This document shows positions 12,338-16,542 of a stretch of 64,000 nucleotides of DNA, piece by piece. Within the stretch, counting starts at the first letter, position 1. The number at the start of each line of letters is the position of its first letter. The notes under the pieces were generated by a model. The model was not told where the DNA came from and ran no database searches. It was given only the letters and a program-made list of their open reading frames with translations. Made by a program: the position numbers and the translations under genes. The DNA lies in assembly GCF_000230695.2 (NCBI RefSeq), contig NC_020541.1, forward strand, positions 1,240,001 to 1,304,000. Reading direction: 5' to 3'. This DNA comes from Rhodanobacter denitrificans (GTDB taxonomy: Bacteria; Pseudomonadota; Gammaproteobacteria; Xanthomonadales; Rhodanobacteraceae).

Positions 12338-14212
12338 TCAGCCGCCGGCCAGCTGCGCGGTGACCTCGTTGATCGAATCGCGGATGCGCCGGGAGAACAC
12401 CGAGTCGAGGTGGTGGATCAGCAGCAGGTGTTCGGTGGCGCGGGTCATGGCGACGTAGAGCAGGCGCGCCTCGTCGGCTTCGCTCTGGCCTTCCTTGGGC
12501 AGGCCGCCGATGCCGGGGATGATCACGAACGGGAATTCCAGCCCCTTGCTGGAGTGCATGGTGACCAGCTTGATGCTGTCCTCGACCGCGAACAGGCTCT
12601 GCTTGCCGGTGTTGTCGGCGAGCCGGCTGGGGATGCCCAGGTCGCGCAGTACCTCGTGCAGTTTTTCGCCTTCCCACTGGTTGCGGTAGATCACCGCCAT
12701 CTCGGAATACGGACGGCCATGCGCGTGCTCGTCGCGCAGCCGCGCGATCAGCACGTCCATCTGCGCGCGGGCGGTGTCGGTGCGCACCAGTTCGGGCACC
12801 GCGCCGCGGCGGCCGGCGCTTTCCGGCGCGACCAGCGGCACGCCGTCGCCGTCGGCCTCGTCGCTGCGCGAGGCGAGCAGGTCCTGCGCGAAGGTGCGCG
12901 CGACCGAGAGGATTTCCAGCGTGTTGCGGTAGTTGAGCTTGAGGATGGTGGTGCGCCCCTGCGCCTGCACGCCGAGGCTCTTCCAGCTGATCTTGCGCCG
13001 GTTCGGGTTGCCGTAGATGTTCTGCGCGTCGTCGTACAGCACCAGCAGCGAGTTGGTGGCCGGGTCGATCATCTGCACGATCAGCTTGTACCAGTCCGGC
13101 TCGAAGTCGTGGCCTTCGTCGACCAGCACCGCGCCGTACTGGGCGCGCGGAATGCGGCCGCGGTCCACGCCGGCGATCACCGCCGGCGGCAGCGCTTCGA
13201 CGAAGGCCTTGCCGCTGCCCGGCGGCAGCGGCTCGTGGTAGGCCACCAGCATCTTGCGGCACCACTTGTGGAAGTTGTAGACCTGCACCTTCTCGCTGAG
13301 GCCGCGCTCGCCGATCAACTGTTCCAGCCGCGCGGCCAGGGTCTTGTTGTAGCAGAGCACCAGGATCGGCTTGGAGAGCTCACGCGCGAGCTGCATCGCG
13401 CGGAAGCCGAGGATCATCGTCTTGCCGGAGCCGGCCACGCCGTGGATGATCCGGTGCTCGCCGCCGATCGAGCGCGCCAGCTGTTCCTGTTGCGTGTCCA
13501 TCACCTTGACCAGGTCGGGGATCTCCAGTGGCCGCACCGCGGCATCGGTAGGACCGAACAGGCCGAACTGGCCGCTGCCGGCTTCCACGCGCAACTCCGG
13601 GAACAGGTGCCAGCGCACGCGGTCGATCTGCGGCAGGGTCAGCGCCACCGGATACACCTGCGGGAACATCGCCCACAGGCGCTGCTGGAACACCTCGGCG
13701 TCGACTGTCTCGTACAGCTCGTCGCGGCAGATCACCAGGTGCTCGGGCAGCACCTCGCCCAGGCCGCCTTCGTCGAACTGCTTGCGGGTGATGTTGGCCA
13801 GCACCACGCCCCAGCCCCACGGCATGATCAGCTTGCCGGCGTAACGCGAGCCTTCCGGGTGGCGCAGCGCGGGGTCCCGCTCCAGCACCACGCCGATCTC
13901 CAGCGCGTACGCGCGTGCCTGCAGCAGCGGGTTGGCCTCCTTCACCAGGCCGCGCTCGGTGACCAGGGTGAACTGGGTGCTGTCGGCGTGGCGGATGGTG
14001 TCGGCCTTCCAGTCCTTCACCTCCAGCACCAGCAGGCCGCGGCGCGGGTGGAACACCACGAAATCCGGGTGGCGCTGTTTCAGCCCGACCGGCACGTCGT
14101 ACCACAGCAGGTAGTCGTCCTCCAGCTTCTGTTCCAGCCGCTCGGAAACGCGCTTCTCGCCGCCGGTCATCCGCGGCAGGCAGCTGTTGCGGGTCGGAAT
14201 GAGTGTCGCCAC
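12338..14212 (-). CDS. NERD-domain UvrD/Rep-like helicase
   Basis: A 624-residue fusion of an N-terminal NERD nuclease-related domain (about residues 10-130) and a superfamily 1 helicase core. NERD residues of the D...E-x-K type are visible (D50, E64, K66 in DFVVF and LVLEVKDWK). Walker A is G-V-A-G-S-G-K-T (258-265) and motif II is D-E-G-H-D-F. C-terminal motifs include T-M-H-S-S-K-G-L-E-F and L-L-Y-V-A-M-T-R-A. Such proteins are presumed to act in DNA repair or phage defence, but the role is not established. I chose the GTG at 14212 because GAGGA precedes it and relatives begin with (M)ATLIP; the frame is open a further nine codons upstream. Confidence 0.85.
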   Translation of the reverse strand: MATLIPTRNSCLPRMTGGEKRVSERLEQKLEDDYLLWYDVPVGLKQRHPDFVVFHPRRGLLVLEVKDWKADTIRHADSTQFTLVTERGLVKEANPLLQARAYALEIGVVLERDPALRHPEGSRYAGKLIMPWGWGVVLANITRKQFDEGGLGEVLPEHLVICRDELYETVDAEVFQQRLWAMFPQVYPVALTLPQIDRVRWHLFPELRVEAGSGQFGLFGPTDAAVRPLEIPDLVKVMDTQQEQLARSIGGEHRIIHGVAGSGKTMILGFRAMQLARELSKPILVLCYNKTLAARLEQLIGERGLSEKVQVYNFHKWCRKMLVAYHEPLPPGSGKAFVEALPPAVIAGVDRGRIPRAQYGAVLVDEGHDFEPDWYKLIVQMIDPATNSLLVLYDDAQNIYGNPNRRKISWKSLGVQAQGRTTILKLNYRNTLEILSVARTFAQDLLASRSDEADGDGVPLVAPESAGRRGAVPELVRTDTARAQMDVLIARLRDEHAHGRPYSEMAVIYRNQWEGEKLHEVLRDLGIPSRLADNTGKQSLFAVEDSIKLVTMHSSKGLEFPFVIIPGIGGLPKEGQSEADEARLLYVAMTRATEHLLLIHHLDSVFSRRIRDSINEVTAQLAGG

Positions 14213-14264
14213 GGAAGTCCTCGACTGACGCTGTCGCACGACGTTAGCCGATGGGATGACGCTG

Positions 14265-15212
14265 TCAATGCCGCTGGACGGCGTGAAGCTGCGCCCAGTG
14301 CCGCAGCTGCTCCGGCGGCACGTCCATGCGCCGGCAGGCGCGGCTGGCGATGCCGTCCTTCAGCGCGGCATGGAACACCGGCGCGATCGACCACAGCGCG
14401 TGCGCCGCCAGCCGCGCCTGGCGCCGCTGCCAGGGCGTGTGGCGCAGCCGCGCGAGCGCCCACTCCGGCAACAGCGCGTGGCCGGCGTACAGGAACAGGT
14501 CGCGCGACAGTCCGGCGGCTGGCACCGGCAGGCGCACCTGCGAAAGCAGGTCGAGCACCACGCGCGAGCGTTCGGTGAAGGCCAGCTCGGGCCGGATGCG
14601 CCGGAAGTATTCCGCTACCTCGTGTTCGCTGGCCGGCACGTCGCGCGCGCCCAGCGCCTCGGCGATCTGCCGCACCTCGTCGTAGTAGCGGTCGACCGCG
14701 CCGGGCGGCAGCGCGATGTGGCTGTAGCGGCGGTAGCCCTGCAGGAAGCAGCACGCCTCGCTGACGTGCACCCAGGTCAGCAGCTCGGGATCATTGGCGC
14801 TGTAGGGGTGCCCGTCCTCGCCATGGCCGGCGATGTGGTCGTGGATCTGCCGCACGTGCGCGATCAGCGCCTCGGCCTGCGCGCGCGGCGCGTAGGTGGT
14901 GCCGCCGACGAAGGCGGTGGTGCGGCGCAGCCGGCCGAGCAGGTCGCCGCGGAAGTTGGAGTGGTCCCACACCCCGGCCAGCGCCAGCGGATGCAGGGTC
15001 TGCAGGGTCAGCGCGGCGAGGCCGCCGGCCAGCATGCCGGGGAAATCCGCGTGCACGCGCCAGGTCGCGCTGTGCGGACCGAACAGGCCCGGATCGCCGT
15101 GCGGATGGTCGTAGTCGAGGCCGCCGCTGTCGGCGCGAGGGAAGGCGCCGAGCACCCAGCGGCGGACCGCTTCGCGGGCAGGTCGGGTCAGCAGGTCGAG
15201 CGGCGAAGGCAT
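14265..15212 (-). CDS. MpaB-family oxygenase (DUF2236)
   Basis: A 315-residue protein of the ER-bound oxygenase MpaB/latex-clearing protein family (DUF2236). Known members are heme-dependent oxygenases or of unknown substrate. The family pattern is visible: an N-terminal helix bundle, the S-A-T-W-R-V segment (about residues 48-53), the D-H-S-N-F region (about 83-87), and the H-V-S-E-A-C motif with a conserved histidine near residue 148. It lies alone, upstream of the NERD helicase on the same strand with a gap of about 50 bases. The substrate cannot be predicted. Confidence 0.8.
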   Translation of the reverse strand: MPSPLDLLTRPAREAVRRWVLGAFPRADSGGLDYDHPHGDPGLFGPHSATWRVHADFPGMLAGGLAALTLQTLHPLALAGVWDHSNFRGDLLGRLRRTTAFVGGTTYAPRAQAEALIAHVRQIHDHIAGHGEDGHPYSANDPELLTWVHVSEACCFLQGYRRYSHIALPPGAVDRYYDEVRQIAEALGARDVPASEHEVAEYFRRIRPELAFTERSRVVLDLLSQVRLPVPAAGLSRDLFLYAGHALLPEWALARLRHTPWQRRQARLAAHALWSIAPVFHAALKDGIASRACRRMDVPPEQLRHWAQLHAVQRH

Positions 15213-15244: not shown

Positions 15245-15272
15245 TTGATTTGGACGTCCATTGTGTTATCAA
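15245..15272 (+). promoter_or_regulatory. Candidate promoter of the aroG leader
   Basis: TTGATT (15245-15250) and TATCAA (15267-15272) are 16 bases apart and resemble a sigma-70 promoter. If this is used, the transcript would start almost at the leader-peptide ATG, making the leader mRNA nearly leaderless. Weak evidence by eye only. Confidence 0.3.
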
Positions 15273-15279
15273 TGACGAC

Positions 15280-15363
15280 ATGCATTCCGCCACCGCCCGC
15301 CTTTCTTTCTGGTTTTACGGCTACCCGAAGCCAACGGCGGCGGCGCGGACGCGATCGTTTTGA
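15280..15363 (+). CDS. Aromatic-rich leader peptide of aroG
   Basis: A 27-codon reading frame upstream of the DAHP synthase gene. Residues 10-15 are Phe-Trp-Phe-Tyr-Gly-Tyr, codons for all three aromatic amino acids, and the last codon before the stop is again Phe. This is the pattern expected of a transcription-attenuation leader peptide in which a ribosome stalls when charged aromatic tRNAs are scarce. No clear Shine-Dalgarno precedes the ATG; an in-frame TTG at 15250 preceded by GGGGAG is an alternative start that keeps the same aromatic run. The peptide ends 23 bases before the terminator hairpin. Confidence 0.72.
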   Translation: MHSATARLSFWFYGYPKPTAAARTRSF

Positions 15364-15411
15364 ACTGATCGAAAGAACCACACCGAACCGCCATCCCAGG
15401 GCGGTTTTTTT
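15288..15411 (+). promoter_or_regulatory. Transcription attenuator with 1:2, 2:3 and 3:4 pairings
   Basis: Segment 1 (CGCCACCGCC, 15288-15297) can pair with segment 2 (GGCGGCGGCG, 15336-15345) with one mismatch. Segment 2 can instead pair with the CCGCC of segment 3 (15388-15392). Segment 3 (AACCGCC, 15386-15392) pairs with segment 4 (GGCGGTT, 15400-15406) to form a terminator stem followed by a T-tract (15405-15411). A ribosome stalled on the aromatic codons (15307-15324) would cover segment 1, free segment 2 and allow read-through into aroG. Pairings were traced by eye; energies were not computed. Confidence 0.68.
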
Positions 15412-15447
15412 ATGGCCGCCACCTGAAAAACCTCCAGGAGAGCCGCC

Positions 15448-16542
<1,095 letters not shown>

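Follow-up and report, generated by a model that had tools for sequence, protein, structure and literature searches.

The type I DAHP synthase gene of Rhodanobacter denitrificans is very probably controlled by a ribosome-mediated transcription attenuator. All positions given below are those of the window, the whole stretch of 64,000 nucleotides that was analysed (contig NC_020541.1, positions 1,240,001 to 1,304,000), and the features of the locus are collected in Table 1. The parts of the attenuator, their conservation, the constraint acting at the RNA level on its segment 2 and the energetic feasibility of the switch are established in the present work.

Table 1. Features of the attenuator and of the gene that follows it, in window positions.
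Feature	Position	Strand	Basis
-35-like hexamer TTGATT, 16 nt before the -10	15245..15250	+	Sequence, partial conservation
Extended -10 TGT-TATCAA, ending 7 nt before the leader ATG	15264..15272	+	Conservation
Leader ORF MHSATARLSFWFYGYPKPTAAARTRSF, 27 codons plus TGA, without Shine-Dalgarno	15280..15363	+	Sequence, relatives
Segment 1, putative protector, pairing with segment 2; CGCCACCGCC	15288..15297	+	P(1:2) 0.96
Putative regulatory codons F-W-F-Y-G-Y, codons 10-15	15307..15324	+	Sequence, relatives
Segment 2, antiterminator 5' arm; GGCGGCGGCG	15336..15345	+	NNG-GCG-G conservation
Segment 3, terminator 5' arm and antiterminator 3' arm	15385..15392	+	Terminator scan, folds, covariation
Segment 4, terminator 3' arm	15400..15407	+	Terminator scan, covariation
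T-tract of the intrinsic terminator	15405..15411	+	T at four columns in 61/61 aligned sequences
Shine-Dalgarno AGGAG of the DAHP synthase gene, 7 nt 5' of its ATG	15436..15440	+	Sequence
Regulated gene, DAHP synthase type I (aroFGH family; called aroG)	15448..16542	+	TIGR00034, PF00793

The identity of the regulated gene was assessed by profile search. Its product scores 529.9 bits against TIGR00034, for which the cut-off is 173.2, and its best model is that of AroG (NF006723), reached with 543.7 bits and under that model's own cut-off of 568. Among the closest solved chains are Phe-regulated and Phe-sensitive DAHP synthases (1gg1, 5cks; 486 bits). At 133 of 166 loci, the enzyme gene has a Shine-Dalgarno-like tetramer no more than 22 nt 5' of its aligned start.

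A first-pass annotation of this DNA had described a frame of 27 codons with FWFYGY at codons 10-15, three mutually exclusive pairings and a T-tract, and all of these were recovered where it had placed them. The frame opens with the ATG at 15280 and closes with the TGA at 15361-15363. Segments 1 (15288-15297) and 2 (15336-15345) pair at nine of ten positions, the remaining one being an A-C mismatch. The core GGCGG of segment 2 (15336-15340), read as codons NNG GCG GNN, is complemented over five pairs by CCGCC (15388-15392) of segment 3, and AACCGCC (15386-15392) forms seven perfect pairs with GGCGGTT (15400-15406). The run of seven T overlaps the last two pairs of this terminator, whose hairpin was also found by the terminator scan. 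The ORF located upstream (14265-15212, minus strand) is divergent and the terminator does not therefore serve as its end. Folded as a whole, the stretch only modestly beats chance (z -2.0, a value equalled or bettered by 9 of 200 shuffles). When the 239 nt preceding the gene were shuffled 5000 times with dinucleotides preserved, a short ORF containing five or more aromatic residues in six codons arose in 3 cases, and no other short ORF (8-60 codons) on either strand of the window reaches this density. In its exact spelling, the core pattern is found once in the organism's own 4.2-Mb genome, and the 368 other genomes sampled from the class do not contain it; this count tests the spelling and not the element, since the sample includes members of the order with a differently spelled leader.

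The region upstream of the enzyme gene was then compared among relatives. Matches to the enzyme are present in 30 of 45 genomes of the genus, 110 of 233 of the family and 144 of 398 of the order. A set of 168 loci, including that of R. denitrificans, was read upstream, comprising 109 of the family and 59 of 74 other members of the order; a 39-residue fragment (G005), the second fragment of another genome (G204) and 15 of the 74 non-family genomes, one of them with a weak fragment, were left out. An aromatic leader stands ahead of the DAHP synthase gene at 167 of these loci, and Phe, Trp and Tyr are all encoded at 166. Relatives retaining the terminator without the aromatic codons, which had been named as one observation that would refute attenuation, were not encountered among them. 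In one genome of the genus (G023), the enzyme gene is kept at 83% identity without the leader and without the conserved terminator, and a different hairpin with a short T-stretch, as judged by eye, is found at that place. The Trp residue is replaced by Gly in a single leader (G480). Among 166 leaders, chosen for having Trp, the five columns from -2 to +2 around this residue are aromatic in 147, 157, 166, 165 and 149 cases. Phe and Tyr are exchanged at several columns, and the codons at column -2 are TAC in 64 leaders, TAT in 62, TTT in 15 and TTC in 6. This exchange together with the synonymous variation implies that aromatic coding is kept, and not one nucleotide string. Names on leader-bearing contigs, among the matches listed, are mostly Rhodanobacter, Dyella and Lysobacterales. 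A pattern scan of named genomes returned at least 117 stretches and at least 48 short ORFs, of which at least 45 are followed by a terminator. One leader on a contig of a metagenome-assembled genome titled Candidatus Eremiobacteraeota (L185) is identical to Dyella leaders, and this title looks wrong.

The RNA segments were examined in the same set of relatives. A hairpin with a T-run follows the leader at 165 of 166 loci according to the filter applied, and at the remaining one (G206) the loop is longer than this filter allowed. Over 61 aligned sequences, the terminator is paired in 96.2% of cells. Cells with a double change number 24, compared with 4.7 in shuffles, and none of 500 shuffles attains as many; four of the ten pairs have changed on both sides, a value reached by 17 of 500 shuffles. 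The antiterminator displays no covariation beyond controls, which neither supports nor refutes the pairing because its core hardly varies. Segment 2 is conserved in another manner. Downstream of the aromatic block, 163 of 166 leaders keep the motif NNG-GCG-G in register with the reading frame, and its first codon specifies ten different residues. Ala at column +9 is encoded by GCG in 122 of 122 cases; the Ala codons located 5' of Trp are GCC (168), GCA (30), GCT (11) and GCG (5). Codon usage of this kind indicates that segment 2 is constrained as RNA, on top of the aromatic coding, as two separable layers of selection.

The sequence preceding the leader carries a candidate promoter. The motif TGnTA[TCA] lies within 24 nt 5' of the leader start at 161 of 166 loci, as compared with 36 of 4937 control windows, and the extended -10 ends 6-10 nt from the leader start codon at 158 of 166. 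The best hexamer 15-19 nt upstream of the -10 matches TTGACA at four or more of six positions in 121 of 161 leaders, a count made without shuffled control. As a scan with the sigma-70 consensus scored no promoter at the locus, the assignment rests on conservation. A Shine-Dalgarno-like tetramer precedes the leader start at 1 of 166 loci, for a background of 13.5%. The position of the -10 and the missing Shine-Dalgarno lead to the prediction that the transcript starts within a few nucleotides of the leader ATG, and the leader ORF is probably leaderless. The first-pass annotation, made without relatives, had mentioned neither this probable start nor the occurrence in Alphaproteobacteria described below. 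A TGnTA motif has been reported 5' of mapped leaderless mRNAs in Bradyrhizobium japonicum (PMC4842269), and the rnTrpL RNA of Sinorhizobium meliloti is reported to start with the ATG of trpL (PMC7298713).

For the start site, the translation of the leader, the stalling and the weight of each of the three amino acids, we infer a mechanism which can be summarized as follows. The promoter would start the transcript at or next to the leader ATG, where a ribosome would initiate without a Shine-Dalgarno sequence. A shortage of charged tRNA for any of Phe, Trp or Tyr would make the ribosome stall within codons 10-15 and leave segment 2 free. The latter would engage segment 3 ahead of the synthesis of segment 4, the terminator would not form and the enzyme gene would be transcribed. 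When all three are plentiful, the ribosome would cross segment 2 up to the stop codon, segments 3 and 4 would pair and transcription would terminate at 15405-15411.

The energetic side of this mechanism was modelled with a ribosome whose front edge lies 15 nt past the first P-site base, everything behind this edge being treated as unpaired. The switch was measured as the highest pair probability between leader codons and the terminator 5' arm, and a value above 0.5 was taken as pairing. In a transcript that still lacks segment 4, segment 3 pairs upstream whichever aromatic codon of the block the ribosome occupies at 159 of 165 loci of the order, 1012 of 1018 aromatic codons passing the threshold, and likewise at 29 of 31 alphaproteobacterial loci described below. 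One or two aromatic positions are at or below 0.5 in six loci of the order and in two of the Alphaproteobacteria. A ribosome placed at the stop codon brings this measure below 0.5 in 165 of 165 loci; seven loci were modelled in more detail. On the complete transcript of the R. denitrificans locus, the equilibrium favours the terminator in nearly all states (P34 at least 0.69) and the switch therefore needs co-transcriptional kinetics. The trp leader of Escherichia coli, submitted to the same procedure as a control, shows the same switch pattern, including the terminator winning on the complete transcript. Folds with the leader masked, as suggested in the first-pass annotation, behave in the way it had predicted and like this control. 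The model has nevertheless to be read with its own controls. When the linkers are shuffled, segment 3 is sequestered in 51% of cases, versus 61 of 61 observed loci with the ribosome at the last aromatic codon, and no more than 20 of the 61 loci beat 27 of their 30 shuffled linkers; the fold of a single locus is consequently weak evidence. In the R. denitrificans locus devoid of a ribosome segments 1 and 2 pair with a probability of 0.96 (Table 1), yet segment 3 is paired upstream above 0.5 in 74 of 165 loci under this condition, so that the protector is not uniform. The coding part of the E. coli trp leader is preceded by untranslated RNA that contains a Shine-Dalgarno sequence, and segment 2 there follows the stop codon. 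Segment 2 is located inside the leader ORF in the present case, unlike in E. coli, and termination after full translation therefore depends on the 1:2 hairpin or on ribosome occupancy, both modelled crudely.

With some reserve, we are inclined to view the leaderless ORF as an OR gate for the three aromatic aminoacyl-tRNAs, in which a shortage of any one would result in extra type I synthase, and to view gene and attenuator as one unit over the order and an alphaproteobacterial sister branch of the enzyme, whose patchiness suggests joint transfer. The first-pass annotation had the leader sense Phe, Trp and Tyr together. This claim derives from the codons. The same kind of attenuator might answer a single amino acid (e.g. 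Phe or Trp), with the remaining aromatic codons as passengers or as a means of tuning. We regard this as somewhat unlikely. The Phe-Tyr-Phe aroR leader of Corynebacterium glutamicum is reported to answer the availability of Phe and not that of Tyr (PMC11802643), and Trp, kept in 166 of 167 leaders, is the most conserved residue; all three residues are however encoded at 166 of 168 loci of the order as well as in 31 of 31 first-examined alphaproteobacterial loci, and the modelled antiterminator is free to form at nearly all of the aromatic positions (1012/1018).

It is also conceivable, and in our opinion improbable, that the leader peptide or the terminated leader RNA acts in trans in addition, in the manner of peTrpL and rnTrpL of S. 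meliloti. Past its aromatic residues, the peptide can still be recognised throughout the order, and a short mRNA-like RNA would result from the leaderless start predicted here, as in that organism (PMC7298713), but the RNA constraint on segment 2 explains part of this peptide conservation. A terminator that is constitutive or controlled by a metabolite or protein, with an incidental aromatic ORF, agrees with the terminator being the stable state of the full transcript and is nonetheless very hard to credit, given that aromatic coding is kept with synonymous change across the order and also in Alphaproteobacteria, that such an ORF appears in just 3 of 5000 shuffles and that no Rfam family (release 15) reaches its gathering score in the window or in 16 related loci. 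At a lax threshold, three weak Rfam matches were obtained, all far under the gathering scores of their families.

The distribution of the element was investigated using a covariance model derived from 61 of these sequences. A search of 299 genomes of the order gave matches at E 0.01 in at least 190, of which the full-length ones of at least 72 bits were counted: 91 genomes contain one each (72-132 bits), 30 of these being part of the training set. All 91 share the strand of the enzyme gene and precede its aligned start by 33-143 nt. Among the matches listed, the weak secondary ones (38.5 bits in the R. denitrificans genome, or less) were rejected, the seven inspected out of eight being plain terminators without aromatic leader. 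Among Gammaproteobacteria outside the order, leader and terminator were found together before none of the 24 genes scanned; these come from the best 28 of 104 matches, four of which were left out as the gene motif was not found. One of the 24 is preceded by four aromatic residues in six codons, with a TTG start and without a T-run.

Among the matches listed by the pattern scan, two alphaproteobacterial contigs carry the element, one of Kaistia dalseonensis and one of a metagenome-assembled Phenylobacterium. The enzyme is present at high score in 30 of 249 genomes of the order of Kaistia (35 at E 0.001). These 30 loci and that of Phenylobacterium display leaders with Phe, Trp and Tyr and hairpins in 31 of 31 cases. 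A Shine-Dalgarno-like tetramer precedes none of these 31 leaders, and CTAnA occurs within 24 nt of the start in 24. A sample of the class Alphaproteobacteria yielded an enzyme match in 8 of 240 genomes, two of them weak. Of five further strong loci, one has the leader and four have none that was found, the upstream sequence being truncated in one of the latter, which brings the alphaproteobacterial total to 32 of 36 loci with the leader before the same enzyme branch. Three loci (L362, L364 and L366) belong to this enzyme branch without a detectable aromatic leader and are possible natural losses. An enzyme tree was computed from 74 sequences (15 of the order, 35 alphaproteobacterial and 24 others), with a root for drawing only. 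The enzymes of the order cluster with those of the Alphaproteobacteria, to the exclusion of the other Gammaproteobacteria (support 100/99). Within this cluster the two are sister groups, the support of the alphaproteobacterial group being weak (90/26). The shared leader and this grouping of the enzyme indicate that gene and attenuator have travelled together, whether inherited or transferred.

The role of the regulated enzyme has to be considered with respect to a second DAHP synthase. The control of such enzymes is usually described as relying on TyrR, TrpR or feedback inhibition (PMC5343134). The R. denitrificans genome also possesses a type II DAHP synthase, located outside the window (G000:C1:1103002-1104303; PF01474, 626.8 bits). 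In the approximately 600 nt upstream of this gene and of two trpE-family genes, no short ORF exceeds three aromatic residues in six codons. The type I match is missing from 15 of 45 genomes of the genus, and one more contains a fragment only. With a type II synthase that shows no such leader in this stretch and a type I gene that some genomes of the genus lack, the attenuated enzyme is best seen as an additional synthase, presumably switched on by need, and not as the sole gate of the pathway. The earlier wording, according to which the attenuator sets the entry into the shikimate pathway, was thus too strong, the attenuated enzyme being one of two entry enzymes.

An attenuator of the same kind, aroR-aroF of Corynebacterium glutamicum, was reportedly described by Neshat et al. 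in 2014. In this actinobacterium, the aroR leader located before aroF contains Phe-Tyr-Phe (PMC11802643, PMC4046766). Both systems share an aromatic leader peptide before a DAHP synthase, ribosome-mediated attenuation and a target that is one of two synthases, whereas the Rhodanobacter-type leaders keep Phe, Trp and Tyr together. The uORFC-13-1 motif found 5' of aroF in Acholeplasma is likewise a candidate uORF attenuator with a terminator before a DAHP synthase gene; it differs by a U run coding for at least one Phe, by a ribosome binding site and by 24 representatives confined to Acholeplasma and environmental sequences (PMC8632094). The trpL-trpE(G) attenuator of S. meliloti resembles the present one by an RNA that starts at the leader ATG, as predicted here, and differs by its Trp codons and its location before trpE(G) (PMC7298713). 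An older survey lists putative attenuators for tyrA operons, and the DAHP synthase gene is absent from the portion of its table that was available (PMC1173090). No earlier description of the element from Xanthomonadales or Alphaproteobacteria emerged from the open literature searched; one may exist in subscription papers about attenuators of Proteobacteria. The kind is therefore already known, and the three-way coding, the probable leaderless layout and the conservation over two classes set this variant apart.

If the proposed reading is true, a large gammaproteobacterial group and several Alphaproteobacteria would read three end products by one RNA switch, the sensing would take place at the level of charged tRNA and a regulatory protein would be unnecessary. 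The element would also offer a simple sequence for studying how one leader integrates several amino acids, as well as attenuation from a leaderless start. It may moreover assist annotation: three of the leader peptides, compared to Pfam and NCBIfam, matched no model, and the 17 sequences submitted to Rfam are equally unmatched at gathering score.

The surroundings of the locus contain two further genes on the minus strand. The divergent neighbour (window 14265-15212) encodes an MpaB/rubber-oxygenase-like protein (PF09995, 212.1 bits). The product of 12338-14239 combines a NERD nuclease-related domain with UvrD-type helicase domains, a layout which we take to resemble that of candidate defence proteins.
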